Below, piece by piece: positions 4,204-18,230 of a DNA stretch of 41,815 nucleotides. The stretch comes from Lachnospiraceae bacterium MD308. Lineage in GTDB: Bacteria > Bacillota > Clostridia > Lachnospirales > Lachnospiraceae. The DNA is taken from the NCBI GenBank assembly GCA_010206225.2, contig VIQU02000006.1, positions 76,631 through 118,445 of the forward strand. The letters run 5' to 3'. Below the pieces are notes generated by a model. The model saw nothing but the letters and a program-made list of their open reading frames with translations, was not told the origin of the DNA and did not search any database. Every line of letters starts with the position of its first letter. The first letter of the stretch is position 1. The position numbers and the translations under genes were made by a program.

Positions 4204-5721
4204 CTACAATTGATGCATCAAATCTTTCGTTTTCTGATACAGCTCATGATATATCTTTTTCAACGGCCCATATATTTTTTGATTCTCTTTTCTTGGCTCA
4301 ATTCTGATCCCCGGTTCGATATACTGCTCCAGTTCATCATATCCTTTAAAACCCCCGGTCCCCACTGCCGCTATCATCGCATCTCCGTAGGCGGCGCCTA
4401 TGGTCACTTTCGCAGTCTTTACTGTATGTCCGGTAACATCCGCGATAATCTGAAGCCACTCTTTATTCTTTGTACCTCCTCCGACGCACAAAAAGCTGTC
4501 GATTGTAAGGCCGTTTTCTTCGAGAATATCGATATGCTGCGCAATAGAATATGCAACCCCTTCAAGCGCGGCACGGTACATATGCTCTCTGGTATGGTGA
4601 AGCTGCAGGCCGAAGAACACTCCTTTGGCGTTCGCATCATTGATCGGTGTCCGCTCTCCGGCAAAATACGGAAGAACCACAAGTCCGCCGCTTCCGGCGG
4701 GTATATGAGAAGACAACTCCGCCATTACTCCAAATGCGTTTTCGCCGCCGCTCTCCTGCTCTTTCACAACCTCTGTATACATGGTATCACGAATCCACTT
4801 AGTCAGCGCACCCGCCGCATTCGTCCCTCCGTCGATACAGAACATACCCGGAATCAGATAATCTCCCGCCCAGATACGACCGTCATCTAACATTTTATCT
4901 GAACAATACATAAGATAACAGGTAGATCCAAGCTGCACCATCAGATTTCCCGGTTTTAGCACTCCCGTGCTGATTGCTTCCGCACCGGAATCGTCGGTTC
5001 CGGTCACAACAGGTGTTCCTGCCTTAAGCCCGGTCTCTTTTGCCGCGCTTTCTGTCACATAACCTACTGTCTCCGCGGTCTCTCTTCCCTCCGCTAATTG
5101 ATCGGCCCTGCAGTATAGTTCTTCCGTAAGCTCCCTATCAATTGCCAGATCATTTCGATAACAAGGGGCAAAAGATGAGATAGCAAGATACCGGTCTATG
5201 ACATACACTCCGGTCAGCTTTGCGGTAAGATAAGAAGAGGCCGTTAGAAACTTATACGCTTTTTCGTGAATCTCCGGTTCATTATTTTTAATCCACAAAA
5301 TCTTCGGCATACAGTCAGAAGAACATAGTGGATCATTAAAAAGCTTTTCAAGCCTCTCTTCTCCGTAATACTCCTGAAGATATTCTATTTCCTTTTCAGC
5401 CCTTGCATCAATTCCATATAAAATCGCCTTACGAAGCGGCTTACAGTTTTCATCCACCGGCACGACGTCCGCGCTCAGGGCGCTGGCGCCCACTCCCTGT
5501 ATCACTTCCGGTGCAATACCCGATTTCCTGATCAACTGGTTGGATATTTTACAGAAATCACCCCACCAGACTTTTTCCGCGTCATGTTCAAAATAATTCG
5601 GTTTTGGATTCTCTACCTCGTGCGATGCCGTGGCCGTCTCTATAATCTTACAAGTCTCATCTATCAGAACTCCTTTACTCTCATTGGTTCCGATATCAAT
5701 TCCCATATAATAATTTTTCAC
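4204..5721 (-). CDS. FGGY-family carbohydrate kinase (xylulokinase-like)
   Basis: A 505-residue sugar kinase with two actin-like ATPase halves. The N-terminal phosphate loop MGIDIGTNESKGVLID covers residues 6-21. GTDDSGAEAIS and LGSTCYL follow in the middle, and the second FGGY signature (CVGGGTKNKEWLQIIADVTG) is near residue 410. Length is usual for xylulokinases. It starts at GTG with AAGGGAG about 9 bases upstream; an ATG five codons later is an alternative. It is the last gene of the 12-gene operon, 13 bases after the BtpA gene. It should phosphorylate a ketose or polyol released by the pathway, but FGGY substrates cannot be read from sequence alone. Confidence 0.85.
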   Translation of the reverse strand: MKNYYMGIDIGTNESKGVLIDETCKIIETATASHEVENPKPNYFEHDAEKVWWGDFCKISNQLIRKSGIAPEVIQGVGASALSADVVPVDENCKPLRKAILYGIDARAEKEIEYLQEYYGEERLEKLFNDPLCSSDCMPKILWIKNNEPEIHEKAYKFLTASSYLTAKLTGVYVIDRYLAISSFAPCYRNDLAIDRELTEELYCRADQLAEGRETAETVGYVTESAAKETGLKAGTPVVTGTDDSGAEAISTGVLKPGNLMVQLGSTCYLMYCSDKMLDDGRIWAGDYLIPGMFCIDGGTNAAGALTKWIRDTMYTEVVKEQESGGENAFGVMAELSSHIPAGSGGLVVLPYFAGERTPINDANAKGVFFGLQLHHTREHMYRAALEGVAYSIAQHIDILEENGLTIDSFLCVGGGTKNKEWLQIIADVTGHTVKTAKVTIGAAYGDAMIAAVGTGGFKGYDELEQYIEPGIRIEPRKENQKIYGPLKKIYHELYQKTKDLMHQL

Positions 5722-5734
5722 CAGATCATCTCCC

Positions 5735-6559
5735 TTATATTTCCAGCTTTTCGTGACTTTCGCGGTATTCCCGCACCTGATCCATCAGCTCTTTCACACG
5801 CTCATATTCTATATGATTCTCAAACTTCCCATCCTTCTTGAAAGTTGTACCGACTGTCGCTCCGTCAGAAATATCCAGTTTTTCTTTAATATTTCCCACA
5901 TTGCAGCCTGTCCCGCAAAGCACCGGCACGTCAATTGCCTCCCGAAGTTCGGTGATAGAGCCTGAATCTGCATCCTGTCCCGCGTACTGTCCCATAATGA
6001 GGAATGCATCCGGATGGCAGTCAAATATTGTAGAATTCGCGATATCCACAAGCCTTCTCTCAACTACATACTCGTCCGATTCATTATTAATAAAATAGAG
6101 CATTTTCAAATCATCCAGCCCTAAAGCCTTCTTTCTGCGAAGTATCGCCGCGATATCCGGCATCGTGATTCCATCGTCTCCTGCATATACCCCCGTAAAA
6201 AGTCCCCGGATAAAATCCGCATCCACAGCGGCCGCCAGATCAATCGCCGCCATCGGATCCGCTTCACAGTCAATCCCAAAGGGTAACCTGATATCATCCA
6301 TCAACTCCCCGATCACTCTCGCCATAGCGGCAGGTCCCACATAATCGATCTTCTGCTGGTACGGAAGACTGAATTCGTTGGAGAAAAGCACTCCGTCCAC
6401 ACCCCCGTCCTGGAGCGCTTTCAAATCTCTCCTCGCATCCTCCACTGTCTTTTTCATGGAATCTCCCTTTTTAAACAACGGATCCCCCGGAAATGCATTC
6501 AAATGCAGCAATGCGATAATCGGTTTATCCGTACCGAACATTTCTTTTAACCATCCCAT
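5735..6559 (-). CDS. BtpA/SgcQ family TIM-barrel protein
   Basis: A 274-residue protein of the BtpA/SgcQ family: PIIALLHLNAFPGDP at the start, GGVDGVLFSNEF, then LPFGIDCEADP, ADFIRGLFTGVYAGDDG and, near the end, VPVLCGTGCNVGNI and DGATVGTTFK, the phosphate-binding end of a TIM barrel. I chose the ATG preceded by GAAGGGAAG; the ATG six codons earlier has no ribosome binding site. In enteric bacteria the relative SgcQ lies in the sgc sugar operon, and BtpA was first linked to photosystem I stability. No reaction is established for this family, but its recurrence in sugar operons supports a catabolic role. Confidence 0.8.
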   Translation of the reverse strand: MGWLKEMFGTDKPIIALLHLNAFPGDPLFKKGDSMKKTVEDARRDLKALQDGGVDGVLFSNEFSLPYQQKIDYVGPAAMARVIGELMDDIRLPFGIDCEADPMAAIDLAAAVDADFIRGLFTGVYAGDDGITMPDIAAILRRKKALGLDDLKMLYFINNESDEYVVERRLVDIANSTIFDCHPDAFLIMGQYAGQDADSGSITELREAIDVPVLCGTGCNVGNIKEKLDISDGATVGTTFKKDGKFENHIEYERVKELMDQVREYRESHEKLEI

Positions 6560-6625
6560 ATATTTACTTCCCTTCATTCATTTTTACTATCAGGAAAAGC
6601 CTCTTTCCTCCATTATCAATTCCTG

Positions 6626-7474
6626 TCAATTCTTGTCTCGTCCGCTCTCACTGCCTTCTCCCGCCAAAACGGGAATGCGTAAAAATTTCTCTACTACCTC
6701 CGCTACACAGTCCTGATTATTTGTCCTGTCTGTTACATAGTCCGCCTGCGCTTTGACTTCTTCCGGCGAGTTAGCTGCTGCCACTCCTATGGCGGCATGC
6801 CTTAGCATGTCCACATCATTATAAAAATTTCCAACAGCGATAATGCCATCCTCTGTTAACTGCTCGATTGCCGCAAGCTTCTTTATGCCGTCCCATTTGG
6901 ATATCCCCGCCGCCATAATATCAATACAATCCGGCTCTGAGAGAATGTATGTAACATCCGAAAGATTTTTCTCAATATAATCTCCCACCTGCCGCCAGTC
7001 ACGCATCGCCATGAAGCCTTCCACTCTTTCGCCGCAGAATATTTCTCCTGTCCGGCCGTAGAGCTTTGGCCATGTGTTTAATTCTTCGGCATATTCCCGT
7101 GTACTGTCCGTAATCATATTCACAAACCATCGGATCCCATCACAGACATGAAGCTCCAACTCCCGCTCCAGACAATATCCCATCAGCTTCAGACAATCCT
7201 CCTGACAGATCCGATGATTATACAATATCTCCTTTGTTTCACAACAGACGATTTTACCTCCGTTATTCAATATCAGGTAATCAACGCAAAGGCTGTCCTC
7301 ATCAAGCGTCAGCATGTCCATATCTCTTCTTCCTGTGACGAATGCCGTTACATATCCCGCTTCTCTGGCAAGCAGAATCGCTCTTTTTGTGGCCTCACCC
7401 ATATGATAATCATCGCACACAGCCGTTCCGTCCAAGTCCAGCGCCAGCATTCCTTTTTTCTTCGCTGCTCCCAT
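6626..7474 (-). CDS. HAD-superfamily (Cof-like) phosphatase
   Basis: A 282-residue Cof-type hydrolase with the DxDGT nucleophile motif (LALDLDGTAVCDD) close to the start, the second motif (VTGRRD), and a C-terminal GNFYNDVDML where the family usually has GDxxND. The cap domain lies between. The chosen ATG follows GGGAGGTG; the frame extends another 20 codons to an upstream start that would overlap the preceding gene, which I rejected. Enzymes of this type remove phosphate from small sugar phosphates or nucleotides. In this operon a likely job is detoxifying a phosphorylated dead-end sugar. Confidence 0.85.
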   Translation of the reverse strand: MGAAKKKGMLALDLDGTAVCDDYHMGEATKRAILLAREAGYVTAFVTGRRDMDMLTLDEDSLCVDYLILNNGGKIVCCETKEILYNHRICQEDCLKLMGYCLERELELHVCDGIRWFVNMITDSTREYAEELNTWPKLYGRTGEIFCGERVEGFMAMRDWRQVGDYIEKNLSDVTYILSEPDCIDIMAAGISKWDGIKKLAAIEQLTEDGIIAVGNFYNDVDMLRHAAIGVAAANSPEEVKAQADYVTDRTNNQDCVAEVVEKFLRIPVLAGEGSESGRDKN

Positions 7475-7512
7475 CACACCTCCCGTTGGTTCCTGTCCAA
7501 CTCGTAATACAT

Positions 7513-8367
7513 CTATCCTTCGACAATCGGACAATTCTTAAGCCATCTGGCTGTATTCTTTGTTGCCTCATCCGGATCATCAAAATAGATCTGGTTGTTA
7601 ATCTCCATCGTAATAGAGCCTTTATAACCGTGATCTGCAAACGACTGAAGATAAGATTCTATCGGATTCTCACCTTCACCCGGAACGAGATGTCCCGCCG
7701 GCGCCCCATCCGCAAGATGCGCATGATGGATCTCACCGAACGTTTCATAATAATCTTCCACGGTCTCTCCTCCCACCGCAGCGGCAACACAATCCACACA
7801 TGCCGTCAGATAAGGAGAATCTACTGCCTTGATCAAATCTCGCAATGTTTTTGTATCATAGCACAGATTCGACTCATATCTCTGAAGCTGCTCCATCACC
7901 ATCTTTACCCCAATCTTTTGAGCATATTCGGCCATCTCCTGCAACGCTTCCACTGATCGTTTATATGCTTCATCCCAATCCTCGTCAAACAATCCGTAGC
8001 CCATCTGAGCAAAATAGTAATCCGCTCCAAACTCTTTCGTATCCTCAATATAGTTCTTTACGATCTCAAGGCTTTTCTTCCTTACATATGGATTGGAAGA
8101 TGCCACATTAATAGGATACAGGCATATCTGCTCTGCCGTGAACACGGACATCTTAAGTCCTCTCTCGTCTAACATTCTCCGGATATCCAAAACCCGTTTC
8201 TGCCGCTTACTGACAGGTGTATCAAATGCACAGTAATGCGGGGCGCCGCCCCAGAAATCTATATAATTGAAGCCATTTTTCGCAATCGAGTCCAGACAGT
8301 ATCCGAGACTGTACTGCTGATAATTGACACTCATAATTCCAAACTGTCCAAACGTAAGCTTATTCAT
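7513..8367 (-). CDS. FrlC-like sugar epimerase/isomerase (xylose-isomerase-type TIM barrel)
   Basis: A 284-residue AP-endonuclease-2-fold sugar epimerase. It keeps the metal-ligand set of the family: Glu159 (VMEQL), Asp192 (CVDCV), His217 (AHLAD) and Glu255 (TMEIN). It also shares with fructoselysine 3-epimerase FrlC the WGGAPH segment, RYESN and the GH-x-VPGEG loop. The ATG overlaps the end of the upstream gene by 8 bases and has GGGGGTG before it. The expected reaction is epimerisation of a ketose-type adduct (for example psicosyl- to fructosyl-amine) so that it can enter the kinase/deglycase route. The exact substrate is inferred from context. Confidence 0.8.
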   Translation of the reverse strand: MNKLTFGQFGIMSVNYQQYSLGYCLDSIAKNGFNYIDFWGGAPHYCAFDTPVSKRQKRVLDIRRMLDERGLKMSVFTAEQICLYPINVASSNPYVRKKSLEIVKNYIEDTKEFGADYYFAQMGYGLFDEDWDEAYKRSVEALQEMAEYAQKIGVKMVMEQLQRYESNLCYDTKTLRDLIKAVDSPYLTACVDCVAAAVGGETVEDYYETFGEIHHAHLADGAPAGHLVPGEGENPIESYLQSFADHGYKGSITMEINNQIYFDDPDEATKNTARWLKNCPIVEG

Positions 8368-9208
8368 GCCCTGCACCCCCTTTTAAGGCTTCCTTTAATA
8401 CCTCTATGGACTTTGCATAGAACTCCTCTGCGCCGTCCGCATATTCTTCCATTGTAATCTCCAATACCACAGGACCTTCATATGCATATGCGGCAAGCGT
8501 ATCTATATGCTGTCTTATATCCTGATTCCCCTCGCCTAATACAAGCTGCTCGTCTTCCTCGTCACTGTCAGAAATCTGAACCGCCTTAATCTTTTCGCCA
8601 AAGCGGTTAAAATAGTCGTTAAGCATCTCTCCTCCTGCATATACTGCACTGGTATTCACGCTGATGCCAAGATTCTTTCCTCCCACCTCGCCTATAATGT
8701 CTGCCACCGCATCGCTGCTTGGTGTGAGTCCCGAAATACAATGCGATACATTCTGCAAAAGCAGCGATACCCCGCACTTTTCGGCAATACGCTCCAGCTC
8801 ACACAATGATTCACAGCAATACTTTCTTGCTTCCTCCTTCGGATAATCCATGATTCCCTTTCCGGGATACACGATTACCTGATTACAGTCAAAGGCAGCA
8901 GCATTTTCTATGTAAAACTGAAGCTGTCTCACGCTTTCCTTACGCAGATATTCATTGTGCGAAGCAATATTTACCGGCAGGAAATTCTGTTCCGGCTCGA
9001 TTGCCAGCACTCGTATTCCCGCATTTTTTATCTTTTTAGCCAGACTATTCACATCGATCTCCTCACCCTCGTAAACTGTATAGTGAGGATGGCAACCTGA
9101 TAATTCAATGTTTCTGATCCCAAGCCGCCTCGCTGACTCCAAGAAATAGTCAAAGCTGTATCTGCGGTATGTCATATTATTGATACAGACCTGATTTTCA
9201 AAATCCAT
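8360..9208 (-). CDS. FrlC-like TIM-barrel paralog with degenerate metal site
   Basis: A 282-residue homolog of the neighbouring epimerase: LSGCHPHY matches its WGGAPHY, LPVNIASHNEYLRKES matches YPINVASSNPYVRKKS, and ISDSDEED and VLGEGN match the active-site loops. Three of the four metal ligands are replaced by near-isosteric residues: Glu to Gln152 (LLLQNVS), Asp to Asn185 (ISVNTSA) and His to Gln211 (VQISDSD). Only Glu250 (LEITM) remains. It therefore probably cannot act as a metal-dependent epimerase. It may be a binding or regulatory partner of the intact paralog, or a metal-free enzyme. It is translationally coupled to that paralog. Confidence 0.8.
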   Translation of the reverse strand: MDFENQVCINNMTYRRYSFDYFLESARRLGIRNIELSGCHPHYTVYEGEEIDVNSLAKKIKNAGIRVLAIEPEQNFLPVNIASHNEYLRKESVRQLQFYIENAAAFDCNQVIVYPGKGIMDYPKEEARKYCCESLCELERIAEKCGVSLLLQNVSHCISGLTPSSDAVADIIGEVGGKNLGISVNTSAVYAGGEMLNDYFNRFGEKIKAVQISDSDEEDEQLVLGEGNQDIRQHIDTLAAYAYEGPVVLEITMEEYADGAEEFYAKSIEVLKEALKGGAGHE

Positions 9209-9228
9209 TACTACACACCCTCTTTCTC

Positions 9229-9657
9229 TTATTCACCCATGACAATAACAGATACCGTCCGCTCCTGCGGACCGTCAAATTCTGCAAGATAGATTTCCTG
9301 CGCGCTCCCGCTCACAAGTTTCCCGCCCTCAACAGGCATGACACAGTGGTTGCCAGAAACCATCGCTTTGAGATGTCCGGTAGGATTCCCTGCCATGGCG
9401 CCGTAGTCATCCAAAAATCTCGCATGATAATAGTCCCCGTCCTCCGGAAAGCATCTTCCAAGCTGTGTAAGGATATCGTCTTCCAGACATTCCAGATTCT
9501 CATTTACCATAATTCCTGTGGTCGTATGATGAGTGATCACATATACAACGCCCTGTTTTACCGGCGAATCCTCTACGATCTGCGCAACCTCTTTCTTTAT
9601 GGGAATCATCTCGTTGTACTTTGCTGTAAAATACTCCAGCCTCTTTGTCGCTACCAT
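9229..9657 (-). CDS. YjbQ/UPF0047 family protein
   Basis: A 142-residue protein of the YjbQ family (UPF0047). It has the characteristic VVYVITHHTTTGIMVNENLE stretch, the acidic DDILTQLGRCFPEDGDYYHARF region and the C-terminal QEIYLAEFDGP-(Q/N)-RTV. Full family length. The ATG follows the stop of the preceding gene directly, with GGGAGG 7 bases upstream inside that gene's end. Members have been reported to have weak thiamine-phosphate synthase activity, but the true role is unresolved. Its presence inside a sugar catabolic operon is unusual and argues for a metabolic substrate here. Confidence 0.85.
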   Translation of the reverse strand: MVATKRLEYFTAKYNEMIPIKKEVAQIVEDSPVKQGVVYVITHHTTTGIMVNENLECLEDDILTQLGRCFPEDGDYYHARFLDDYGAMAGNPTGHLKAMVSGNHCVMPVEGGKLVSGSAQEIYLAEFDGPQERTVSVIVMGE

Positions 9658-10506
9658 TTAAATACCTCCCATAAACTCCACTGCATTTTCCCCTAATATC
9701 AGCTCCTTTGTGGACTCGCGCATATCCATCTGACGGATTGCCTGTATCATACGTCTTTGCTCAAGTCTCGGATCATCAGAGCCGAACATCACCTGATGCC
9801 TTAAGCTTCTGTCGATCCACCGGGGGCCGATATCCACCTCCAGACACTGATGATAGAATTCTCTCGGATTATCAAAGTAGAGCAAGGCAGTATCTGTATA
9901 GATATTCCGGTACTTTAACATCAGCATACAGACCTCTTTTACCCACGGCCATCCGAAATGAGCAAGACATATCTTAAGTTTCGGATGCCTGTACGCTGTT
10001 TCTTCAAATACCAACGGATGCGAATATTTTACAAGCGTCCCCGGCTCCATCGAGACACCGCAGTGAAAGATAATCGGTTTCTCATATTTTTCACAAACCC
10101 GATATATTGGTTCCATAAAATGATCGCCCGGAAAAAACTGCTGTTTTGACGGATGAAGCTTTAACCCCTTTAGGCCAAGCTCCGTAAATGCGTATTCCAG
10201 AACATCCGCCGCATTTTCCTCTGACGGATCGACACTTGCAAAGCCTGTCAGCATATCCGGGCATATTTTTACCAGCTCTGCCGTCTGTTCATTTGTTACG
10301 ATATCTCCCCCGGCTTCCTCAGGGAGGGCCAGAGGCAGGATGCATAGCCTGTCAAGCTCTGACACCTGACAATCCCGCCTCCACTGTTCCAAACCAAATT
10401 CTTCTGTCTTGTAAAGTCCAAGAACCTGTCTGTTCTTCTCAAGCTTTTCCTTGGAAAGCCCAATCTCTTTTATAAAAGCCGGATGGACATGCATATCAAT
10501 TACCAT
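9658..10506 (-). CDS. TIM-barrel metal-dependent amidohydrolase (Amidohydrolase_2 family)
   Basis: A 282-residue amidohydrolase with an intact metal site pattern: His-Val-His near the start (MVIDMHVHP), IIFHCGVSM, CLAHFGWPWV and FGSDDPRL. The chosen ATG overlaps the end of the upstream kinase gene by 11 bases; a start ten codons earlier is open but would overlap more. The family hydrolyses or decarboxylates small acids and lactones. In this operon it may hydrolyse a side chain or lactone of the imported compound; the substrate is not evident. Confidence 0.8.
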   Translation of the reverse strand: MVIDMHVHPAFIKEIGLSKEKLEKNRQVLGLYKTEEFGLEQWRRDCQVSELDRLCILPLALPEEAGGDIVTNEQTAELVKICPDMLTGFASVDPSEENAADVLEYAFTELGLKGLKLHPSKQQFFPGDHFMEPIYRVCEKYEKPIIFHCGVSMEPGTLVKYSHPLVFEETAYRHPKLKICLAHFGWPWVKEVCMLMLKYRNIYTDTALLYFDNPREFYHQCLEVDIGPRWIDRSLRHQVMFGSDDPRLEQRRMIQAIRQMDMRESTKELILGENAVEFMGGI

Positions 10507-11305
10507 CCTGTTCACTACCCTTCTCCCACGGTTCAAAGAAGCCTACTACCTTAGCCGCGATTTTTGCGCCAAGCTTCTGACACTCAGGCATCTCCTTTCC
10601 GCTCATGATCCCATACATGAAACCTGCCATGTAAGAATCTCCCGCTCCAACCGTATTCACTACTGCCGCCGGACAAATCCCGCACTGATAATATTCTTTG
10701 CCGTCATATGCCATGCTGCCTCCTTCTCCGAAAGTTGCAACCGCGACCAGACTTCCTTTTTCAACTATTTTCTTCAAAAAATCTTTCACTTTCAGATTAC
10801 AGTCTTCAAACGAGAAAAACGCATAATCTACATAAGGAACAGTCTCCTCCACCAACGGATCTTCAACTTCTGTCGCATAGTCAAAACATATTTTGGCACC
10901 CTTTTTCTTTAGCTCTGGAAGGTGCATATGCGCATTTCCCCAAAAAGCAGTATGAATCAAGTCGTGGGAAGCTGCGAACTCTATGTCTTCTTTAGAAAAT
11001 TCCACATTTTCCATCACGCCTTCGATGTAATCCCCATAGGTTCTTTCCCTGTCCACGAGATCCATATAGGAAATTGCCGTCTCTCCTTCTCCAACTTTCA
11101 GGTGCGTGATATCTATCTCTTCTTCATTAAGTTCCGCAATCATCTGACGTCCATACTCATCATTTCCCGTAGTGCTTATGAGCGAAACTTCTGCCCCAAG
11201 CCGTTTCATATGGACTGCGAAATCAACTGAATTGCCCGTGCAGTAATATCTGTCAAGCTTCGGATAAACATCCACACAGTTGTCGCCAATTGCTGCAATC
11301 TTCAT
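10496..11305 (-). CDS. PfkB-family kinase, FrlD (fructoselysine 6-kinase)-like
   Basis: A 269-residue ribokinase-fold kinase. The N-terminus (MKIAAIGDNCVDVYP) and the GDYIEGVM segment closely resemble fructoselysine 6-kinase FrlD, and the catalytic anion hole and base are in NTVGAGDSYMAGF. Length is close to FrlD. The ATG has a TTGGAG site. The expected reaction is ATP-dependent phosphorylation of a fructosamine at O6, feeding the SIS deglycase encoded at the head of the operon. A second kinase of the same subfamily is encoded two genes upstream, so the two may divide related substrates. Confidence 0.8.
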   Translation of the reverse strand: MKIAAIGDNCVDVYPKLDRYYCTGNSVDFAVHMKRLGAEVSLISTTGNDEYGRQMIAELNEEEIDITHLKVGEGETAISYMDLVDRERTYGDYIEGVMENVEFSKEDIEFAASHDLIHTAFWGNAHMHLPELKKKGAKICFDYATEVEDPLVEETVPYVDYAFFSFEDCNLKVKDFLKKIVEKGSLVAVATFGEGGSMAYDGKEYYQCGICPAAVVNTVGAGDSYMAGFMYGIMSGKEMPECQKLGAKIAAKVVGFFEPWEKGSEQDGN

Positions 11306-11319
11306 ATTATCACTCCAAT

Positions 11320-12870
11320 CTATACAATAAATCCTGCCGCTAAGAATGCTACGGCCGATAAAACTACAGCGATTACCATATACTGTACAGAAGCAGTCGA
11401 GGCTTCATATGCATCGGTCTTTGTCGCCGCAGCCGCCACCAGCGCACCGTCGGAGTAAAGACAACCCTGACTTCCCCAGATGCCTGCACAGATCAATGCT
11501 GCGATTGTAAGATACGGATTCGCTCCAGTAGCTGCTGTAAGCGGAATAATGATCGGCAGTGCCATCATATACAGCGACCAGTTAAAACTAACTAAAAACT
11601 CCGTGCATGCAAATACCACAAACACAACGAACGGAAGGATCTTTGGCGAAAGTATGTGTGATGTGATTCCTACAATATACGGCGCAAATCCCATCGCATC
11701 CAATTGGTTAACCAATACCAGAGATACTCCGAACAGCATCGTCAGCATCATCATATCTTTAAATCCTTCAATCAGAATATCATTGATAAACTGTCTCGGT
11801 GTACACAAGCCCTGAAATACAAACAAGAAGAAAGTAACCACCAGGGAAGCGATAATACCAACCATAATGTCTAAACCTGCCAGCCATGCGCCGCCAACGA
11901 GCACAATAACGGGAATAAAAAAATTCACCATTCTGTGAGGCATTCCCTCTGTAATATCATCAGATCCTACATCCGCATCATCGCCCATCTCTTTTCCGCT
12001 TGCAGACGGCTCTACAGAGCCCCCGTCTTTCACTCTCTGCACTGCCGCTTTCATCTTTCCGAAATCAGGGATCACACCCAATGCTACCAACATACCGATG
12101 ACCAGAACTATGATCGGAAAGAACATGAACGGTACGCATTTCATGTATTCCGCAACGCCTTTTCCTGACTCCGCAAATCCAGAAGTCTCAAGAAGCACTG
12201 CCACAAATACAGTCCAGGCTCCGAGAGGCCATAATGTAGCGGGCGCTACTGCCGACGCGCGGATCATAAACGCTGATTTCTCTCTTGGGATTCCATAACT
12301 GTCAGCAAGAGGCGTCATTGCCGTCCCCGTCGTAAAAGCACTAAGCTCATCATCCACAGAAAGCACCACATCCATCAGCCACATAATAACCAAAGATGTC
12401 TTTGGACTCTTAGCCTTCTTCTGCGCCCAGTTTGCAAATGCCTTTGCGCCGCCGCCCTTCGATACGGCCGCCAGCACACTTCCTATGCCAAGATACAGAA
12501 GTAGCATCCTGGCATTATCATAATTAAGGATTGCCGATATCTGCTCCTCCGTAAACGCCACAACCGTATCCATCCGAAACCGCATAAATACCGTAAGAAA
12601 AGATGCCCATATAAAAGCTTCTAAAAATCCTTTTGTCAAAAGAACGAATACAAACATTACAACCGGAACCAAAAGCGTCCATGCTCCAAAATCAACTATC
12701 GTCTCCGCCGGCATCGTTTCGCCCGCGTCAAAATCAATCGTCTCCGCAACCTCCTGATATTCAAAATACTCAAGCTTCTCTCTCGGCGCAAATAGCCCAA
12801 CAATTATGAATACCACGATCATCATCAAATAAGCTGCCGCTCTTTTTCTGTCACTTAAAAATGTTTTCAT
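11320..12870 (-). CDS. NhaC-family Na+/H+ antiporter-like transporter
   Basis: A 516-residue polytopic membrane protein with about 11-12 helices. Family features include VLSVDDELSAFTTGTAMTPLAD and SAVAPATLWPLGAW, and a C-terminal half with WGSQGCLYSDGALVAAAAT. A hydrophilic acidic loop (about residues 285-305) separates the halves. I chose the ATG preceded by GAGGAGG at 7 bases. NhaC relatives exchange ions or carry small organic anions or amines with Na+ or H+. It is the only transporter gene in the operon, so it is the natural candidate to import the substrate; this is inference. Confidence 0.8.
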   Translation of the reverse strand: MKTFLSDRKRAAAYLMMIVVFIIVGLFAPREKLEYFEYQEVAETIDFDAGETMPAETIVDFGAWTLLVPVVMFVFVLLTKGFLEAFIWASFLTVFMRFRMDTVVAFTEEQISAILNYDNARMLLLYLGIGSVLAAVSKGGGAKAFANWAQKKAKSPKTSLVIMWLMDVVLSVDDELSAFTTGTAMTPLADSYGIPREKSAFMIRASAVAPATLWPLGAWTVFVAVLLETSGFAESGKGVAEYMKCVPFMFFPIIVLVIGMLVALGVIPDFGKMKAAVQRVKDGGSVEPSASGKEMGDDADVGSDDITEGMPHRMVNFFIPVIVLVGGAWLAGLDIMVGIIASLVVTFFLFVFQGLCTPRQFINDILIEGFKDMMMLTMLFGVSLVLVNQLDAMGFAPYIVGITSHILSPKILPFVVFVVFACTEFLVSFNWSLYMMALPIIIPLTAATGANPYLTIAALICAGIWGSQGCLYSDGALVAAAATKTDAYEASTASVQYMVIAVVLSAVAFLAAGFIV

Positions 12871-12884
12871 TAAAATGCCTCCTC

Positions 12885-13739
12885 TCATTCTATCGGCTGT
12901 CCGTACCCAAAAGCTCCTTTGATCAGGCAGTTTTCGGCAGAAAATTCTGCCGCGTATTCGAATGCCTCCCGAATTGCTTTTTCATCTACCTTCATACCCT
13001 TTTTCCATCCGCTCTTCAAAAGACACATTAGAAACGATGTAAAATAGCTGTCCCCGGCTCCCATTGTATCCACTGCTTTCTTCAGATGAACCGTACCCTC
13101 GTAAAAGTTTTCCCCGTCAAAAAGAAGCTGACCTTTCGTCCCCATCGTCGCAAGCACATAGCTTACTCCTTTCACACTTACCTTTTTTAGAAGCCCCCTG
13201 ATTTCCTGATCCGCCATATGTTCACAAGAAAACAGGGCAAAATCAATATAGGGACACACGGTATCAAGATATTCCTCTGTGCGAAATTCATCTTCCACCG
13301 CAAAATCAAAGGTCACAAGACCTGACACACCTTTAAACTTTACAAGTTCCTCCTCTTCCTCCGCATAACAGCTGCAGTGGATCAGGTCAAATTTATTCAG
13401 GTACAAAAGCTCGCTCTCCCCAAGGGGTAGCGCTTCATGAAGATTCTCTCTCTCATCATCCGCCTGAAACACGCGCTCGCCGTCTATCAGATTCACATCG
13501 CACCGCTCTGTAACCGTACCCTCCTGAATCCTGCAATGTGAGATATCTACATTCATATCCTCCATCGCATCCCGAATCATCTGTGCCTCCTCATCTTCCC
13601 CCCAGTATCCCAGATATGCCGCCTCAATTCCCATTCTTCTGGCATATGCCGCAAAATTTATACAGTTACCACCCGGATATCTCACATTCTGGTTCAGATA
13701 CCTGTCTACTACGTTGTCACCATATCCTATTACTTTCAT
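12885..13739 (-). CDS. PfkB-family kinase, FrlD-like (second copy)
   Basis: A 284-residue ribokinase-fold kinase. The start MKVIGYGDNVVDRYL and PGGNCINFA give the sugar-binding region, DTMGAGDSYFTSF the catalytic Asp region, and the C-terminus has GAFGYG, as in FrlD-type enzymes. The ATG lies 13 bases after the upstream stop; a longer frame overlapping that gene is possible but lacks support. It differs considerably from the other kinase of the operon (for example CEHMADQEIRG in place of FEDCNLKVKD), so it is not a recent duplication. A distinct substrate is likely. Confidence 0.8.
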   Translation of the reverse strand: MKVIGYGDNVVDRYLNQNVRYPGGNCINFAAYARRMGIEAAYLGYWGEDEEAQMIRDAMEDMNVDISHCRIQEGTVTERCDVNLIDGERVFQADDERENLHEALPLGESELLYLNKFDLIHCSCYAEEEEELVKFKGVSGLVTFDFAVEDEFRTEEYLDTVCPYIDFALFSCEHMADQEIRGLLKKVSVKGVSYVLATMGTKGQLLFDGENFYEGTVHLKKAVDTMGAGDSYFTSFLMCLLKSGWKKGMKVDEKAIREAFEYAAEFSAENCLIKGAFGYGQPIE

Positions 13740-13752
13740 GTCTTGTATTCCC

Positions 13753-15306
13753 CTATTCCTGATACACGATCTTTCCATCACAGATCGTCATGCATACTTT
13801 TGTTTCTTTCAATCTGTCTCCATGTTCCTTGAAGATATTACGGTTCAATACTGCGATATCTGCCAACTTTCCTTTCTCCAAAGTTCCGAGCCTGTCCTCA
13901 TCAAAATTCGCTTTCTGTCCGTTATATGTCCACCCTGCCAGAACCTCTCCGGGCGTAATTGCTTCTTGTGCATTGTATCCTCCTTCCGGCTCCCCGTCAG
14001 GGAATCTCCTTTCCGAAGCAAAGCAGACCGACATCGGAATATCGGGAACATCAAGAGGAAGATCCGTCCCCCAGCAGAGTGTTACACCGGAATCTAACAG
14101 TGAGCGGTATGGCCAGATTGTCTTCTGTCTCTCCTCTGAGAAATATTTCAAACCATAATAATTCTCATACTGCGGATAGCAATTCATGATCTGCACATAA
14201 TTAATTGCCGTAATGCCATTGCTCTTCAGTCTTCCTATATCCTCCCTGTCAATCAGCTCCATATCGATAATGACATGTCTTGCGTCTCTTACTCCGTTTT
14301 CTTCCCGGCATTTTTCAAAGATATCTATCACCTTTCTGACCGCTTTGTCTCCTTCCGCGTGAAGCGCGCAACGGAAGCCTTTTTTGTCCGCTTCTAACAC
14401 CGCCTGTTCGAGCCCTTTATAGTCCGGCTCTTCAAAATCCTCTGCCGCTCTTTCTTCATCCGGATACCGATCAAGGATATCTCCGCCATAGGACTCAATA
14501 TCTCCGTCCACCATGATGTTATATCCCATGAATTTTACAAAATCACCTCCAAACTTTTCCTTCATTGCCTGACCATATTCAAGGTCCACACCCTTGCCTA
14601 CCGGCTGACTGACAAGGTTGACTCTATGCTGCAGACTGCCTTCCTCCTCAAGCTCCTTAAGCACATCTGTAAATCCATAATAGTCATCAAAGCCTATCTC
14701 CTTGATAGAAGTAACCCCCTGCCTCGCAAGCATTTTCTGAAAATTCATATACTGCTCTTTGGCGTATTCCTGATCTCCTGCCAACTCCCGGAACATTCTG
14801 TAACAGCTTTCCGCATAACAGCTCTCCTCATCAAATCCGAACCGTTCTCTTGCTTTCTGATTCATACAACATTCTTCCCGGCTTTCTCTGAAGACAACTG
14901 CCGCACGGTCAGGAAAGACTTCCTCCAAAATATCTTTGCTGATTTCTGTGTCTTCTGAAAGTCCGTGTGCCAGCATAGGAGCATCAATCTTTAATAACAC
15001 CTCATATTCCTTCAGTGCATTCAGCAATTCTTGCTCATTACCAACATGCGATACATCCAAGCCCACGCGCTCCCACATATATCCCATGAAGAAAACATGA
15101 TTATCCACAAACCCCGGCGTCACAACCTTTCCTGTCATATCCAGCACTTTCGTATGCTCACCTGTATATTTTTTAAAATCTAACCCTTCTTCCACACAGC
15201 AGATCCGGCTGCCGTCTACTGCGAGAAACCCATCAATAATCTCATCTTTTGTCCGCCCTGTAAATATCAGATCCGAACGGATGATTAAACTTGCATGCCC
15301 TTCCAT
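13753..15306 (-). CDS. YtcJ-like amidohydrolase with divergent metal site
   Basis: A 517-residue protein of the YtcJ-type amidohydrolase group, with a composite beta-sandwich (N- and C-terminal, ending AGWTYNGQKANFDEDRLG and KGKLADIAVLN) around a TIM barrel. The usual HxH metal motif after PGF is His70-Val-Phe72, so the second His is lost. The site where relatives have a Glu-His pair reads DMEL. ALHAEGDKAV and GTDLPLD are retained. It begins at an ATG with GAGGAG upstream. It may use a single metal or act on an unusual amide or imide substrate. It lies second in the operon, next to the deglycase, suggesting it handles the glycated amine or peptide part. Confidence 0.75.
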   Translation of the reverse strand: MEGHASLIIRSDLIFTGRTKDEIIDGFLAVDGSRICCVEEGLDFKKYTGEHTKVLDMTGKVVTPGFVDNHVFFMGYMWERVGLDVSHVGNEQELLNALKEYEVLLKIDAPMLAHGLSEDTEISKDILEEVFPDRAAVVFRESREECCMNQKARERFGFDEESCYAESCYRMFRELAGDQEYAKEQYMNFQKMLARQGVTSIKEIGFDDYYGFTDVLKELEEEGSLQHRVNLVSQPVGKGVDLEYGQAMKEKFGGDFVKFMGYNIMVDGDIESYGGDILDRYPDEERAAEDFEEPDYKGLEQAVLEADKKGFRCALHAEGDKAVRKVIDIFEKCREENGVRDARHVIIDMELIDREDIGRLKSNGITAINYVQIMNCYPQYENYYGLKYFSEERQKTIWPYRSLLDSGVTLCWGTDLPLDVPDIPMSVCFASERRFPDGEPEGGYNAQEAITPGEVLAGWTYNGQKANFDEDRLGTLEKGKLADIAVLNRNIFKEHGDRLKETKVCMTICDGKIVYQE

Positions 15307-15318
15307 GTTCTTCTCCTC

Positions 15319-16338
15319 TTAATATTCCATCTGCTTGTAATATCTGCGGATATCCAATGAATGTCCCCTTTTTGCCTCAAGCTGTATACTTAATCTGTCT
15401 AAAACTGCAGTCATTACGATCGGTGAGAGAAGACCTCTGTATTTATCTTCAACTCCCGGCAATGAATAGTCCGCTGTATCAAAGACATTCAGGTTTTCTG
15501 TGAAGCCAAGCTTTTTGGCAAAATTAACTACTCGCTCGCACTGGGGGCGAAGCTCATCCTCTCCCATGATAACCATAAGGCTTACATCCTTTTCTAACAG
15601 CTCCAGCGTCCCATGGAAAAATTCAGCAGCTTTTACAGACTTCGTACGGATCCACTGCATTTCCTCCATAACACACATCGCATAAGAATAGGTTTCTCCC
15701 CACACAGTACCCGCTCCTGTCAGCAGATGGTATGTTTCATCTTTGTATTTTTCTGCAAATGCCTCCGCCTTGTTCTCACACTGCTTCTTTACGTTAACAA
15801 GCGCTGCCGGTAATTTCCCAAGATTTTCACAGAATTCCTCATACTCAGGGAAATCACCATGTTCATGCATGAAAGAGAACGTCAGCATATATAAAAGGAT
15901 GTAGTCCGCATCCGCCGCCGAGAAGTCGTCCATTGTATTAATAATTGGATAATCCGCTTCCTTTGCATACGGTACATCTGCATTTCCCGAAATGCAGATT
16001 GTTCTGGCTCCCTTCTCACGGCAATAAGCGGCCGCCTCTACAGTTTCCTGTGTTGTCCCGGAAGTCGAGGTAAAGATACATACCGAATCCTTTCCAAACT
16101 GATTGTGTCCGCATGCCATCAACTCCGCTGCAATTTCCGCGTATACCGAAATCGTAGATTTCGTTCTCATATAATACTCAAATGGCAGAAACATCGCATA
16201 AGATCCGCCCGAACCAATCAGAAAAATATTTTTATAGCCGTCTTTACTGATTTCCTTTGTAATTTCTTCCACTCTTCCTTTTAGCTTTACTGTATTGTTG
16301 CCAATTTCAAGATATTTCTTCTCATCAAAACCTATCAT
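15319..16338 (-). CDS. SIS-domain sugar-amine deglycase, FrlB-like
   Basis: A 339-residue protein with two SIS domains: IFLIGSGGSYAMFLP and IFTSTSGTTQETVEA bind the sugar phosphate in the first, and KAAEFFHGTLELLE marks the second. The C-terminus RRYYKQMEY closely matches that of fructoselysine-6-phosphate deglycase FrlB (RRYYGGLVEY). The expected reaction is cleavage of a 6-phosphofructosyl-amine to glucose 6-phosphate and free amine. An ATG three codons earlier is open, but the AGGAGG site lies only one base from it and 10 bases from the chosen start. As first gene of the operon it sits directly behind the promoter and operators. Confidence 0.8.
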   Translation of the reverse strand: MIGFDEKKYLEIGNNTVKLKGRVEEITKEISKDGYKNIFLIGSGGSYAMFLPFEYYMRTKSTISVYAEIAAELMACGHNQFGKDSVCIFTSTSGTTQETVEAAAYCREKGARTICISGNADVPYAKEADYPIINTMDDFSAADADYILLYMLTFSFMHEHGDFPEYEEFCENLGKLPAALVNVKKQCENKAEAFAEKYKDETYHLLTGAGTVWGETYSYAMCVMEEMQWIRTKSVKAAEFFHGTLELLEKDVSLMVIMGEDELRPQCERVVNFAKKLGFTENLNVFDTADYSLPGVEDKYRGLLSPIVMTAVLDRLSIQLEAKRGHSLDIRRYYKQMEY

Positions 16339-16376
16339 GTCATTCATTCCTCCTAATTGTCTTTTAAAGCGCTTTG

Positions 16377-16748
16377 TGGTATACCATATATATCTTTTAC
16401 GCTTTAAACTATACCACTATGTGCTTTTTACGTCAATATCTTTACTATAGCGTTTTTTTCACAATATTTCTCTTCTATTTTTATTTATTTTGCACAAAAT
16501 ATATCTTTATTTTCGAGTTGTTTTTATATTATTCTTAATATACCACTTTACTTTTTTTGACAGAAGATATATAATATAGAGAGAATATATTTTATATACC
16601 ATTGTAAAAAATTATCATACCACACTTATCTATCTCTTGAATTTATGTCATTTACTTATGCGTAGAATATATATACCAATTTCACAGAAAAACCATACCA
16701 CTCATCATATCTTTATGTGGAACAGCACTGATGCGGTATAGTATACCA
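16377..16748. promoter_or_regulatory. Array of YATACCA operator half-sites between the operon and its GntR genes
   Basis: Within the 427-base gap, the heptamer (T/C)ATACCA occurs on the plus strand at 16380, 16410, 16539, 16595, 16616, 16672, 16694 and 16742. Two copies form perfect palindromes: TGGTATACCA (16377-16386) and GGTATA-g-TATACC (16735-16747). The first palindrome lies in the operon leader, the second half-site overlaps the operon -10 box, and the last palindrome lies just upstream of the first GntR gene. HutC-type GntR proteins bind GT/AC-rich palindromes of this style, so these are probably their operators. A palindromic AAAGCGCTTT (16366-16375) resembles an imperfect catabolite-response site. 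No gene lies in this gap. Confidence 0.7.
16408..16436 (-). promoter_or_regulatory. Sigma-A-type promoter of the 12-gene operon
   Basis: On the minus strand TTGACG (16431-16436) is followed after 17 bases by TATAGT (16408-16413), about 70 bases before the deglycase start. The -10 box shares bases with one TGGTATA operator half-site, an arrangement expected for repression. Confidence 0.7.
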
Positions 16749-16774
16749 ATTTTATTGAAAGGAGCTTTTACAAA

Positions 16775-17485
16775 ATGATTCATCAACAGCCACTCTATCG
16801 TCAGATCGCAGAGCTTTTGCGTGAAAAAATAGAAAAAGGGGAATATCAGTTCGGACAATTTATCCCTTCCGAGAGGGAACTTTCTGCCAAATACGGCGTG
16901 AATCGTCTGACACTGCGCAAAGCGATTGCACTGCTTGTCAACGAAGGGTTATTAATCCCAAAACCCGGAAAAGGCACCTATGTCAACCGTCCAAAGATTG
17001 ATTCCGCATTTGACACAATTCAAAGTACCACTCCATTTTTGTTAGACATGGGGCTGACGCCTTCCAACCGATTAATCTATTCCGGCCGCCGGAAAGCCAA
17101 CTGGAAATATGCGCAGATATTTAAGATTTCTCCCGATGATGACATTTTTCAGATCTTTCGTGTCCGTCTCGGCGACGGCGAACCCTATATTCTGGAATAT
17201 ACTTATCTTCCATACAGCCTGATACCTGATATCGAGCAATATGATTTCAGTATCTATTCACTTTATGACATCTATAACAAACACGGCATACAGCTTGCAC
17301 ATGACACGCAGACTCTGGAAATTGTTAAAATCTGCCCGCCGCAGTCCGGCCTGCTTAACCTGCCTGAAAATGATCCTGTATTTATGACTACAGAAACTAT
17401 TATCGATACTCGGGGAAAGATTGTGGAATACACAAAGTCATACTCCAGCGGGAAAAAATTTGTCTTTTCTACAATTATGGAATAA
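16775..17485 (+). CDS. GntR-family regulator, HutC/UTRA type (first of pair)
   Basis: A 236-residue regulator. The winged helix-turn-helix covers about residues 1-70 (PLYRQIAELLREKIEKGEY, then FIPSERELSAKYGVNRLTLR, and PGKGTYV for the wing), and the UTRA ligand-binding domain about 90-232. It begins at an ATG with AAGGAG 8-9 bases upstream. It reads away from the sugar operon, and the YATACCA array lies between them. UTRA domains of this group commonly sense sugar phosphates, so a phosphorylated pathway intermediate is a plausible inducer; this is inference. The palindrome just upstream suggests self-regulation. Confidence 0.9.
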   Translation: MIHQQPLYRQIAELLREKIEKGEYQFGQFIPSERELSAKYGVNRLTLRKAIALLVNEGLLIPKPGKGTYVNRPKIDSAFDTIQSTTPFLLDMGLTPSNRLIYSGRRKANWKYAQIFKISPDDDIFQIFRVRLGDGEPYILEYTYLPYSLIPDIEQYDFSIYSLYDIYNKHGIQLAHDTQTLEIVKICPPQSGLLNLPENDPVFMTTETIIDTRGKIVEYTKSYSSGKKFVFSTIME

Positions 17486-17495
17486 AGGAGAACTT

Positions 17496-18230
17496 ATGGG
17501 AAAATTAATACAATTAGTAAGTGAAGATCTGCGAGAAAAAATTGAAGAATATATTGTTACACATAAGCTAAAGGCGCATGATAAACTGCCTTCAGAACGT
17601 TCTTTATGCGAGCTGTTCAGCGCGAACCGCATAACATTGAGGGAAGCTCTGAAGCATATGCAGAATGAAGGCTGCATATATACGGTTCACGGAAAAGGGA
17701 ACTTTATAGCCGAACCGAAATATACAGAGGATGTAAGAAGTTTCATCTCTTACTCTTCCGGCTGGGAGTCCGATGGCTATCAGACACGAAGCAAAGTAAT
17801 TGATTTTTACGTAATAGAAGCTCCAAAAAAAGTAGCGCAGGCATTAAAATGCCGGATCGGCACTTCAGTCTATCTATTAAAGCGGGTGAGATATCTCAAT
17901 GACATCCCATTATTTTTGGAGACAGCTTATATTCCTATTGAATACTGTCCAAAGCTGGACAGCTTTAACTTCAATAGTTGTTCTTTGTATAGTACGCTGG
18001 AGCAATTTTACAATATAAAGCTTACACATCAGGAACATACGATTTCTATTACAAGGCTAGAAGCATTTGAGGCGCATCTGCTTGGCATGCAGGAGGGGGA
18101 TGCTGCTTTCTATATCAAGGGAATCACAAAAACCAGCGGAGGAACACCCTTTGAATACTGTGTATCATTAAACCGCGCAGATAAATATAAAATGTCCGGG
18201 AGACTTAGTTCTGCAAATGAAACCGCTTAA
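17496..18230 (+). CDS. GntR-family regulator, HutC/UTRA type (second of pair)
   Basis: A 244-residue regulator of the same type as its neighbour: LREKIEEYIVTHKLKAHDKL and PSERSLCELFSANRITLREA form the DNA-binding domain, HGKGNFIAEP the wing, and residues from about 85 the UTRA domain. The ATG is 10 bases after the first regulator's stop with AAAGGAG upstream, so the two are co-transcribed. Sequence identity with the first is modest, mostly in the DNA-binding helices. Two co-encoded UTRA regulators may read two different effectors for one operon, matching its two kinases. Confidence 0.9.
   Translation: MGKLIQLVSEDLREKIEEYIVTHKLKAHDKLPSERSLCELFSANRITLREALKHMQNEGCIYTVHGKGNFIAEPKYTEDVRSFISYSSGWESDGYQTRSKVIDFYVIEAPKKVAQALKCRIGTSVYLLKRVRYLNDIPLFLETAYIPIEYCPKLDSFNFNSCSLYSTLEQFYNIKLTHQEHTISITRLEAFEAHLLGMQEGDAAFYIKGITKTSGGTPFEYCVSLNRADKYKMSGRLSSANETA

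Follow-up and report, generated by a model that had tools for sequence, protein, structure and literature searches.

A probable Amadori-type catabolic operon and the conserved module beside it in Lachnospiraceae bacterium MD308

Among the major products of heating food are Amadori compounds, which gut bacteria and pathogens use as substrates. The window analyzed here, a stretch of 41,815 nucleotides from contig VIQU02000006.1 of Lachnospiraceae bacterium MD308, carries a run of 12 genes in which relatives of known Amadori genes stand beside hydrolases, a second kinase, and other families, and this raises the question of what the operon degrades and what the additional genes contribute. The operon very likely serves to degrade amino compounds carrying a bound sugar, like those that form in heated food. 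Our main finding is that a module of a PfkB kinase (FrlD2), an Amidohydro_2 protein (AMI2), and a YjbQ protein is conserved beside Amadori cores in distantly related bacteria.

Layout and control region of the 12-gene run

The genes form a tightly packed run on the minus strand (Table 1), with longest-ORF gaps of -41 to +48 bases, and are presumably cotranscribed. Pfam and NCBIfam assign them, starting from the SIS gene, to SIS, Amidohydro_3, PfkB, Na_H_antiporter (NhaC), PfkB/FrlD, Amidohydro_2, YjbQ/UPF0047, AP_endonuc_2 twice (FrlC-like), Cof-type HAD, BtpA/SgcQ, and FGGY, in agreement with the order, strand, and families of the initial annotation. For the SIS gene, the start at 16338 was preferred over that at 16347, since this second ATG lies 10 bases after AGGAGG and fits the MLGF start of its relatives.

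Table 1 Features of the operon and its control region (positions in the window)
Feature	Position	Strand	Basis or remark
SIS-family phospho-Amadori deglycase (predicted), GfrF-like	15319..16338	-	339 aa from better start; ORF opens 16347; Pfam SIS, tree
Amidohydro_3 protein (YtcJ-type; AMI3) with altered metal site	13753..15306	-	Pfam; comparison with 3icj
PfkB kinase 1, FraD-like	12885..13739	-	Pfam; identity to FraD; clade
NhaC-family carrier, presumed importer	11320..12888	-	Pfam PF03553
PfkB kinase 2 (FrlD2), FrlD family, accessory-module clade	10496..11305	-	NCBIfam fructoselysine 6-kinase; clade
Amidohydro_2 protein (AMI2), anchor of accessory module	9658..10506	-	Pfam; predicted fold
YjbQ/UPF0047 protein	9229..9657	-	Pfam and NCBIfam
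FrlC-like pseudo-epimerase, lacking three of its four metal ligands	8360..9208	-	Pfam AP_endonuc_2; ligand alignment
FrlC-like epimerase (predicted), ligands intact	7513..8376	-	Pfam; ligand alignment
Cof-type HAD phosphatase	6626..7534	-	Pfam and NCBIfam
BtpA/SgcQ protein, predicted ribulose-phosphate-barrel fold	5735..6577	-	Pfam, NCBIfam; model and fold search
FGGY kinase, xylulokinase-like but below that cut-off	4204..5721	-	Score 303 versus cut-off 380
Divergent control region, seven TGGTATA/TATACCA sites	16348..16774	.	Motif count
GntR/UTRA regulator 1	16775..17485	+	Pfam; 29% to FrlR
GntR/UTRA regulator 2	17496..18230	+	Pfam; 24% to FrlR

For comparison we used the best 80 of 507 AMI2-anchored relatives, which are the loci closest to the query and include near-duplicates. 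The 12-gene arrangement is not due to chance, because it recurs: locus L060 has the same 12 genes in identical order at 88-98% identity, as the proposal of conserved co-occurrence anticipated, and L061 and L062 have 11 of them at 62-85%; in both, the last two genes have traded places and the Cof-type HAD is missing, a HAD of a different family (cluster 7, representative PF13419) lying in the corresponding stretch. Rfam and tRNA scans gave no matches, nor did megablast of window positions 11320-16400 against E. coli genomes.

The control region holds seven of the window's 11 TGGTATA/TATACCA matches, whereas 1000 shuffles of it gave a mean of 0.155 sites and at most 2. Eight such sites lie at the same place in L060 and seven in L061, and the array is rich only in these two loci and the window. 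We claim no sigma-70 promoter, since candidate sites were not above chance (30 found versus 28.1 expected).

Deglycase, kinases, epimerases, and carriers

The SIS protein had been called FrlB-like, a label that its score of 87 against the FrlB NCBIfam cut-off of 430 does not support; it is 39% identical to Klebsiella GfrF and 25% to E. coli FrlB. In a quick tree of 35 hand-chosen loci of the 80 (SH-aLRT support only, long branches flagged), it fell outside the FraB clade and within a 28-row clade (SH-aLRT 99) that holds both GfrF references, the names GfrE and GfrF in Klebsiella and E. faecium having been given in this analysis from gene order. Glu229 and His245 align with Glu214 and His230 of FraB, and both are present in 76/76 rows; PMC10100877 describes FraB E214A as catalytically inactive. 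From its sequence, we take the protein to be a GfrF-type phospho-Amadori deglycase that keeps the Glu that FraB needs, and "FrlB-like" should read GfrF-like. SIS genes were found in 65 of the 80 loci by ORF, with three further weak tblastn matches; 11 of the 12 loci without one are shorter than 14 kb, the other (L083) being 20.8 kb long.

Two FrlD-like kinases had been proposed, and one fits that description. Kinase 2 alone passes the NCBIfam fructoselysine-6-kinase cut-off of 247 bits (340), whereas kinase 1 does not reach it (180), is 34.5% identical to FraD, and shares a clade with FraD and an Agrobacterium pTi PfkB on long branches. FrlD2 forms a separate clade on the FrlD side (SH-aLRT 100) that holds no reference and no kinase-1 row, and exactly one member was found in 75 of the 80 loci. 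These counts rest on segments that tblastn located in each of the 80 loci. In an ORF-based tree, for which some ORFs had been lost or fused, L069 and L084 seemingly had no FrlD2 and the single L121 row sat in a different clade, although the tblastn segments revealed FrlD2 in all three. Labeling kinases by their distance from AMI2 gave no clean match to the clades of that ORF-based tree. The kinase trees were again quick ones with SH-aLRT only and long branches flagged. No kinase was recognized in two loci with AMI2 and YjbQ, namely, L088 (Enorma) and L066 (Anaerolineaceae).

The paired FrlC-like proteins likewise divide: one has the E, D, H, and E ligands of E. coli FrlC, whereas the other, with Q, N, Q, and E at these positions, has lost three of the four. 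Placement of the SIS and PfkB proteins outside the Amadori clades had been named as evidence against an Amadori pathway; instead, SIS groups with GfrF, kinase 2 falls to the FrlD side, and kinase 1 joins FraD. With the SIS protein in the GfrF clade, kinase 2 above the FrlD cut-off, and one FrlC-like protein intact, the assignment as an Amadori-type catabolic operon is supported.

Carriers differ among the loci. NhaC relatives at 35% identity or more occur in 7 of the 80, and exactly these seven carry the pseudo-epimerase label. No part in Amadori metabolism is known to us for NhaC carriers, and a role in uptake is therefore a guess. An FrlA-type permease is present in 41 of the 80 sister loci, all 41 matching E. 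coli FrlA by BLAST (five of the six rows listed at about 55% identity, one at 67%), and a DcuC-family carrier in seven; six of these seven loci were included in the SIS tree, and every one of them falls with FraB.

Among the best 80 of 507 loci, BtpA is labeled in 39, HAD in 21, and FGGY in 44, some labels resting on 25-30% identity. D14 and D16 of the Cof-type HAD are conserved in a 21-row alignment. The BtpA/SgcQ protein scores above both cut-offs (223.6 versus 153.4 in NCBIfam; 221.5 versus 30 in Pfam). That it might be a TrpF/HisA-like "Amadori isomerase" is only an idea; the fold search fits the superfamily, but ThiE and aldolases rank as high. Three BtpA neighborhoods held FGGY in one case and annotated Amadori genes in none, and the best 30 of 250 BtpA/SgcQ papers, judged by titles and abstract openings, contained nothing on Amadori catabolism.

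The FrlD2-AMI2-YjbQ module

YjbQ lies directly downstream of AMI2 in 79 of the 80 loci (74 by ORF and five of the remaining six by tblastn, two of these partial), whereas neither YjbQ nor a kinase of the FrlD/PfkB type lies within 1.5 kb in any of 27 generic Amidohydro_2 loci. FrlD2, AMI2, and YjbQ are usually accompanied by FrlC, often also by Amidohydro_3 and BtpA-HAD-FGGY. The cluster recurs in Bacillota, Chloroflexota, and a spirochaete, so that the initial framing of co-occurrence within gut Firmicutes was too narrow. Across the best 80 of 507 loci the module stays while the transporter, deglycase, and second kinase alternate among frl-, fra-, and gfr-like types, which suggests that its target is the sugar moiety, or a by-product that all these pathways share, rather than the amine. 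In keeping with the suggestion that the system is undescribed, no description of this arrangement of Amadori genes and module was found among the papers listed, as judged by titles and abstract openings.

The YjbQ protein is above cut-off in NCBIfam (103.6 versus 67.75) and Pfam (102 versus 27), and H44, E53, H78, and H95 are invariant in 75/75 rows. Neither three distant YjbQ neighborhoods nor those of four distant Amidohydro_2 relatives on plasmids gave a clue to substrate, and YjbQ papers, again by titles and abstract openings, held nothing on Amadori catabolism.

Both amidohydrolase groups show changes at the metal site. Compared with 3icj, the Amidohydro_3 group has HxF in place of HxH in 49/49 rows, and at a later His position, where the alignment is loose, Asp in 45 and Glu in 4 of the 49. 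In the AMI2 group the beta-8 Asp is Asn in 61 of 81 rows, but the window AMI2, like 14 others, has what we take, from known motifs, to be all five metal-ligand positions (HxH, two further His, and the beta-8 Asp). An impression from 15 rows that AMI2 is degenerate was discarded: the larger set keeps HxH in nearly all rows, the Asp-to-Asn change is the common one, and the window copy is intact. By fold search, the predicted AMI2 structure is nearest to 3irs, of unknown function, and then to the LigJ hydratase and the LigW and ACMSD decarboxylases. The altered sites and lyase-like relatives weaken the argument that extra hydrolases imply a complex substrate.

Possible roles of the module and comparison with known systems

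The locus is probably an inducible operon that handles Amadori products (1-amino-1-deoxy-ketoses), joined to a portable sugar-side module; its reactions and substrate we infer from the genes themselves. The NhaC-type carrier would import the Amadori compound, the FrlD/FraD-type PfkB kinases would phosphorylate its sugar at C6, and the GfrF-type SIS deglycase would split the phospho-compound into hexose 6-phosphate and free amine, with the intact FrlC-like enzyme feeding in the 3-epimer. Regulation of the divergent promoters may fall to the two GntR/UTRA proteins, acting at the TGGTATA array. The module would most likely turn epimers, cyclized forms, or rearranged forms of the glycated compound into one that the core can use. 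More tentatively, FrlD2, FrlC, AMI2, and YjbQ may make up a new sugar-side module in which a non-SIS lyase, made up of an ACMSD/LigJ-type barrel and YjbQ, processes a phosphorylated ketosamine.

It is also conceivable, if doubtful, that two pathways run in parallel in one operon, a classical kinase and SIS branch and a second one in which FrlD2 would phosphorylate a different glycated amine (for example, of a pentose or other ketose) that AMI2 and YjbQ, in place of an SIS protein, would then split, BtpA and FGGY taking the released sugar onward. This would fit the presence of at least two kinases in 65 of 80 loci (tblastn; 59 by ORF), the constant separation of FrlD2 in its own clade, the hydratases and decarboxylases that are the nearest named folds to AMI2, and the adjoining BtpA and FGGY genes of a Rhizobium plasmid (L151) without annotated Amadori genes. 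BtpA and FGGY are often missing, however, SIS is kept in 53 of the 56 loci of at least 18 kb, and we know of no non-SIS deglycase of this kind.

Opening of a complex glycated substrate (a glycated peptide, lactone, lactam, or acyl form) by both amidohydrolases, close to the initial proposal, now seems unlikely given the metal-site changes across the Amidohydro_3 group and most AMI2 rows and given that Pfam finds no peptidase among the 12 genes. Speaking for it are the complete ligand set of the window AMI2 and other hydrolases that recur nearby, namely, a cluster of related proteins present in 17 of the 80 (its single tested member a PF00756 esterase), a GDSL hydrolase in L042, hydantoinase B in L055, and hydantoinase A and B between SIS and PfkB in L145. 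Less probable still is metabolite repair, in which the module clears toxic or dead-end phospho-Amadori by-products and the HAD phosphatase serves as a valve; the module is present whatever the core type, and the abstract of PMC12755824 describes 6-P-fructose-aspartate as a toxic intermediate, but a second dedicated kinase yields more phospho-compound, not less, and HAD is labeled in only 21 of the 80 loci. That the genes are mere neighbors without a common pathway is highly improbable: BtpA, HAD, FGGY, and AMI3 do shift position and strand between loci, but FrlD2, AMI2, and YjbQ stay clustered across the phyla named above.

Known systems share parts of this operon. E. coli frlABCD-frlR (fructoselysine/psicoselysine) has in common with it a PfkB 6-kinase above the FrlD cut-off, the SIS family, an intact FrlC, and GntR-type control; it differs in its FrlA, which the window replaces with NhaC, and in the distant FrlB, and it has no counterpart of the second kinase, NhaC, AMI2, AMI3, YjbQ, pseudo-epimerase, HAD, BtpA, and FGGY. 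The window SIS belongs with the GfrF references of gfrABCDEF (fructoselysine/glucoselysine PTS), but the 12 genes include kinases instead of a mannose-family PTS and a GfrE-type SIS; which substrate GfrE and GfrF each take is given inconsistently within PMC12675984. With fra (fructose-asparagine) the window shares the Glu/His positions of FraB, and its kinase 1 groups with FraD, if on long branches, but its SIS lies outside the FraB clade, and NhaC stands in place of the C4-dicarboxylate carrier. B. subtilis frlBONMD-frlP follows the same kinase and deglycase logic with an ABC importer, and the accessible part of PMC12632257 does not mention AMI2 or YjbQ. The Intestinimonas AF211 cluster AF_00949-00955, also from gut Clostridia, has a kinase and deglycase but an ABC importer, and "amidohydrolase" is absent from the main text (PMC4697335). 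In a plasmid 2 cluster of Enterococcus faecium DO (L040), annotated gene by gene only, AMI3, AMI2, YjbQ, a permease, FrlD, two GntR genes, and SIS adjoin; here the permease is an FrlA-like amino acid permease, AMI2 is short at its start, and NhaC, BtpA, and FGGY are absent from the stretch.

That the module accompanies frl-, fra-, and gfr-like cores in bacteria far removed from one another indicates that the short textbook scheme, with a transporter, a kinase, and a deglycase, leaves out part of the process. To our knowledge, no physiological role is agreed upon for YjbQ/UPF0047 and BtpA/SgcQ, both of them widespread families, and tying them to one defined chemistry makes their function directly testable. 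If the reading of the module as a non-SIS lyase is true, it would provide the first physiological role for the YjbQ family and, through BtpA, for the SgcQ family.

Gene cluster and control region

The twelve genes are real, lie on the minus strand and follow the order given in the initial annotation; by Pfam and NCBIfam they encode an SIS protein, Amidohydro_3, a PfkB kinase (kinase 1), NhaC, a PfkB/FrlD kinase (kinase 2), an Amidohydro_2 protein (AMI2), YjbQ, two AP_endonuc_2 proteins (the FrlC-like FRC1 and FRC2), a Cof-type HAD protein, BtpA/SgcQ and an FGGY kinase. Because the distances between their longest ORFs run only from -41 to +48 bases, the spacing speaks for one predicted operon; the most probable start of its SIS gene is 16338, as first proposed. 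An IS200-like Y1 transposase ORF lies downstream.

Selected features of the window
Feature	Position	Remarks
IS200-like Y1 transposase ORF	755-1201	downstream of the operon
FRC1	8360-9208	minus strand
Divergent control region with TGGTATA/TATACCA array	16348-16774	427 bases, seven sites
Two GntR/UTRA genes	from 16775	opposite strand to the cluster
Methyl-accepting chemotaxis protein, single Cache domain	18337-20016	adjoins the GntR pair

Of the window's 11 TGGTATA matches, seven fall within the divergent region, against a mean of 0.155 and a maximum of 2 in 1,000 dinucleotide shuffles of that region; these sites are likely operators for the GntR pair. The corresponding region holds eight matches in L060 and seven in L061, two of the 20 loci inspected, and since the remaining 18 carry 0 to 5 intergenic sites in total, the array is a trait of close relatives. 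The neighboring Cache-domain chemotaxis protein may be a sensor of a related compound.

Deglycase, kinases and FrlC-like proteins

The Amadori-type catabolism originally proposed is supported at the sequence level by a GfrF-clade SIS protein with the Glu/His pair of FraB, a kinase that passes the FrlD cut-off and intact FRC2 ligands. With the Klebsiella protein that we named GfrF from gene order (the second SIS protein of a gfr-type PTS cluster), the SIS protein shares 39% identity, and with E. coli FrlB 25%; among proteins of solved structure, 2a3n and 8glr match its sequence best. In a tree of 49 rows (the window, 35 of the 80 loci described below, and references), it belongs, together with both GfrF references, to a clade of 28 rows (SH-aLRT, 99) that is separate from GfrE, FraB and FrlB. 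Glu214 and His230 of FraB align with its Glu229 and His245, and Glu and His occupy these positions in 76 of 76 rows. We take His230 to have a functional role; the term itself was found in no paper among the literature matches listed. PMC10100877 describes FraB E214A as catalytically inactive. The window's own genome also encodes a further, distant SIS protein with 25% identity (L002; G000:C2:31568-32554).

Kinase 2 scores above the NCBIfam cut-off for fructoselysine 6-kinase and kinase 1 below it; in a kinase tree, kinase 1 shares a clade with FraD and a kinase of an Agrobacterium pTi. FRC2 has the same ligands as E. coli FrlC (E,D,H,E), whereas FRC1 reads Q,N,Q,E and is a predicted pseudo-epimerase. 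FRC1 is present in exactly the seven NhaC loci among the 80, and these loci are a sub-variant that includes the window. The inferred path matches the order of import, kinase and deglycase in frl, gfr and fra.

Amidohydrolases, BtpA and YjbQ

The initial annotation read the amidohydrolases as extra hydrolases for a more complex glycated substrate, a reading weakened by the altered metal site of Amidohydro_3 and by the ligands and predicted fold of AMI2. All 49 Amidohydro_3 sequences have Phe at position 72, compared with the second His of HxH in 3icj; at position 348, which by the motif is presumably the later His ligand site (the HMMER alignment is loose there), 45 have Asp and 4 have Glu. The five ligand positions of AMI2 (n = 81) read HHHHN in 61 sequences and HHHHD in 15, including the window, with further losses in 5. 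Its predicted model (pLDDT, 93.8) is nearest in fold to 3irs, a protein of unknown function, followed by the LigJ hydratase and the LigW and ACMSD decarboxylases.

The BtpA model (pLDDT, 86.9) is a barrel of the ribulose-phosphate type; its closest folds include ThiE, KDPGal aldolase, GGGPS and TrpC, with query TM-scores mostly of 0.5-0.6. YjbQ bears the NCBIfam name "secondary thiamine-phosphate synthase enzyme"; this name beside a ThiE-like BtpA fold is a curiosity with no evidential weight. On a Thiodictyon plasmid carrying photosynthesis genes (L157, 5409-7730), YjbQ is flanked by idi and a RuBisCO-like gene, an unrelated setting for this family. Among the literature matches listed (title, abstract start and term counts, with few subscription papers covered), none joined YjbQ with fructoselysine catabolism. 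The public record of E. faecium DO plasmid 2 already contains a version of the kinase 2, AMI2 and YjbQ module, annotated gene by gene only. This version (L040, 10064-18118) has erm(B) and aminoglycoside genes nearby, separated from it by an IS1216, and the match of its Amidohydro_2 ORF starts at query residue 88. On a Priestia filamentosa plasmid (L145, 6016-12051), genes for SIS, hydantoinase/oxoprolinase A and B and a PfkB kinase are consecutive, which points to a possible pathway for cyclised Amadori compounds, e.g., fructosyl-pyroglutamate.

Constant module and variable core

Within the family (299 genomes, own included), SIS matched in 25 genomes (E <= 1e-40) and AMI2 in 17 (E <= 1e-30). 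At 16 of 17 non-own AMI2 places, YjbQ adjoined and the cluster included an FrlD-type kinase; only L059 differed, where AMI2 itself matches weakly (118 bits). A profile search of genome contigs with the AMI2 alignment gave 507 relatives, of which the best 80 were used (69 Bacillota, 6 Chloroflexota, 1 Spirochaetota, 1 Actinomycetota and 3 without phylum); this sample overlaps the family sample (e.g., G164 and L074) and contains near-duplicates (e.g., L069 and L070). Co-occurrence, the check proposed at the outset, is conserved: by ORF and BLAST label, YjbQ was found in 74/80, an FrlD/PfkB kinase in 77, SIS in 65, FrlC-like proteins in 67, GntR in 69, Amidohydro_3 in 48, FGGY in 44, BtpA in 39 and HAD in 21. 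For the 56 loci of at least 18 kb, the counts were 55 for YjbQ, 55 for the kinase and 53 for SIS. By tblastn, YjbQ directly followed AMI2 in five of the six ORF misses (two partial), and the sixth locus stops 138 bases past AMI2; weak SIS matches were gained in three loci, and of the 12 still without SIS, 11 are under 14 kb and L083 is 20.8 kb. As a control, 40 of 398 phylum genomes matched AMI2 at 49 places, 30 of which were compared: the own one, two true relatives (YjbQ in the 1.5-kb flanks of both, a kinase in those of one) and 27 generic paralogues, none of which had YjbQ or an FrlD/PfkB kinase in those flanks.

AMI2 is preceded by an FrlC-like gene in 50/80 loci, with E,D,H,E kept in all 50, and by FrlD in 24. 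In a tree of 149 rows, built from tblastn kinase segments of all 80 loci, kinase 2 belongs to a clade (SH-aLRT, 100) that excludes the references and kinase 1 and has exactly one member per locus in 75 loci. As for the others, the only kinase of L064 and of L085 is partial and lies where the contig starts, L067 starts at AMI2, and no kinase segment was seen in L066 or L088. At least two kinases occur in 65/80 loci by tree segments and in 59/80 by ORF.

The core of carrier, SIS deglycase and other kinase varies. Carriers, with Pfam run on one member per protein cluster, are FrlA-like in 41 loci, DcuC family in 7 and NhaC (at least 35%) in 7. In the 49-row tree, FraB is joined by the SIS proteins of Hungatella, Roseburia and their relatives, FrlB by those from Anaerolineaceae and Caproiciproducens (subject to a long-branch warning), and a Priestia filamentosa protein by three from Paenibacillus; the others group with GfrF. 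Since the presumed amine-recognising part changes while the module stays constant, we infer that the module acts on the sugar side or generically. What is genuinely new here is this conserved, portable accessory module.
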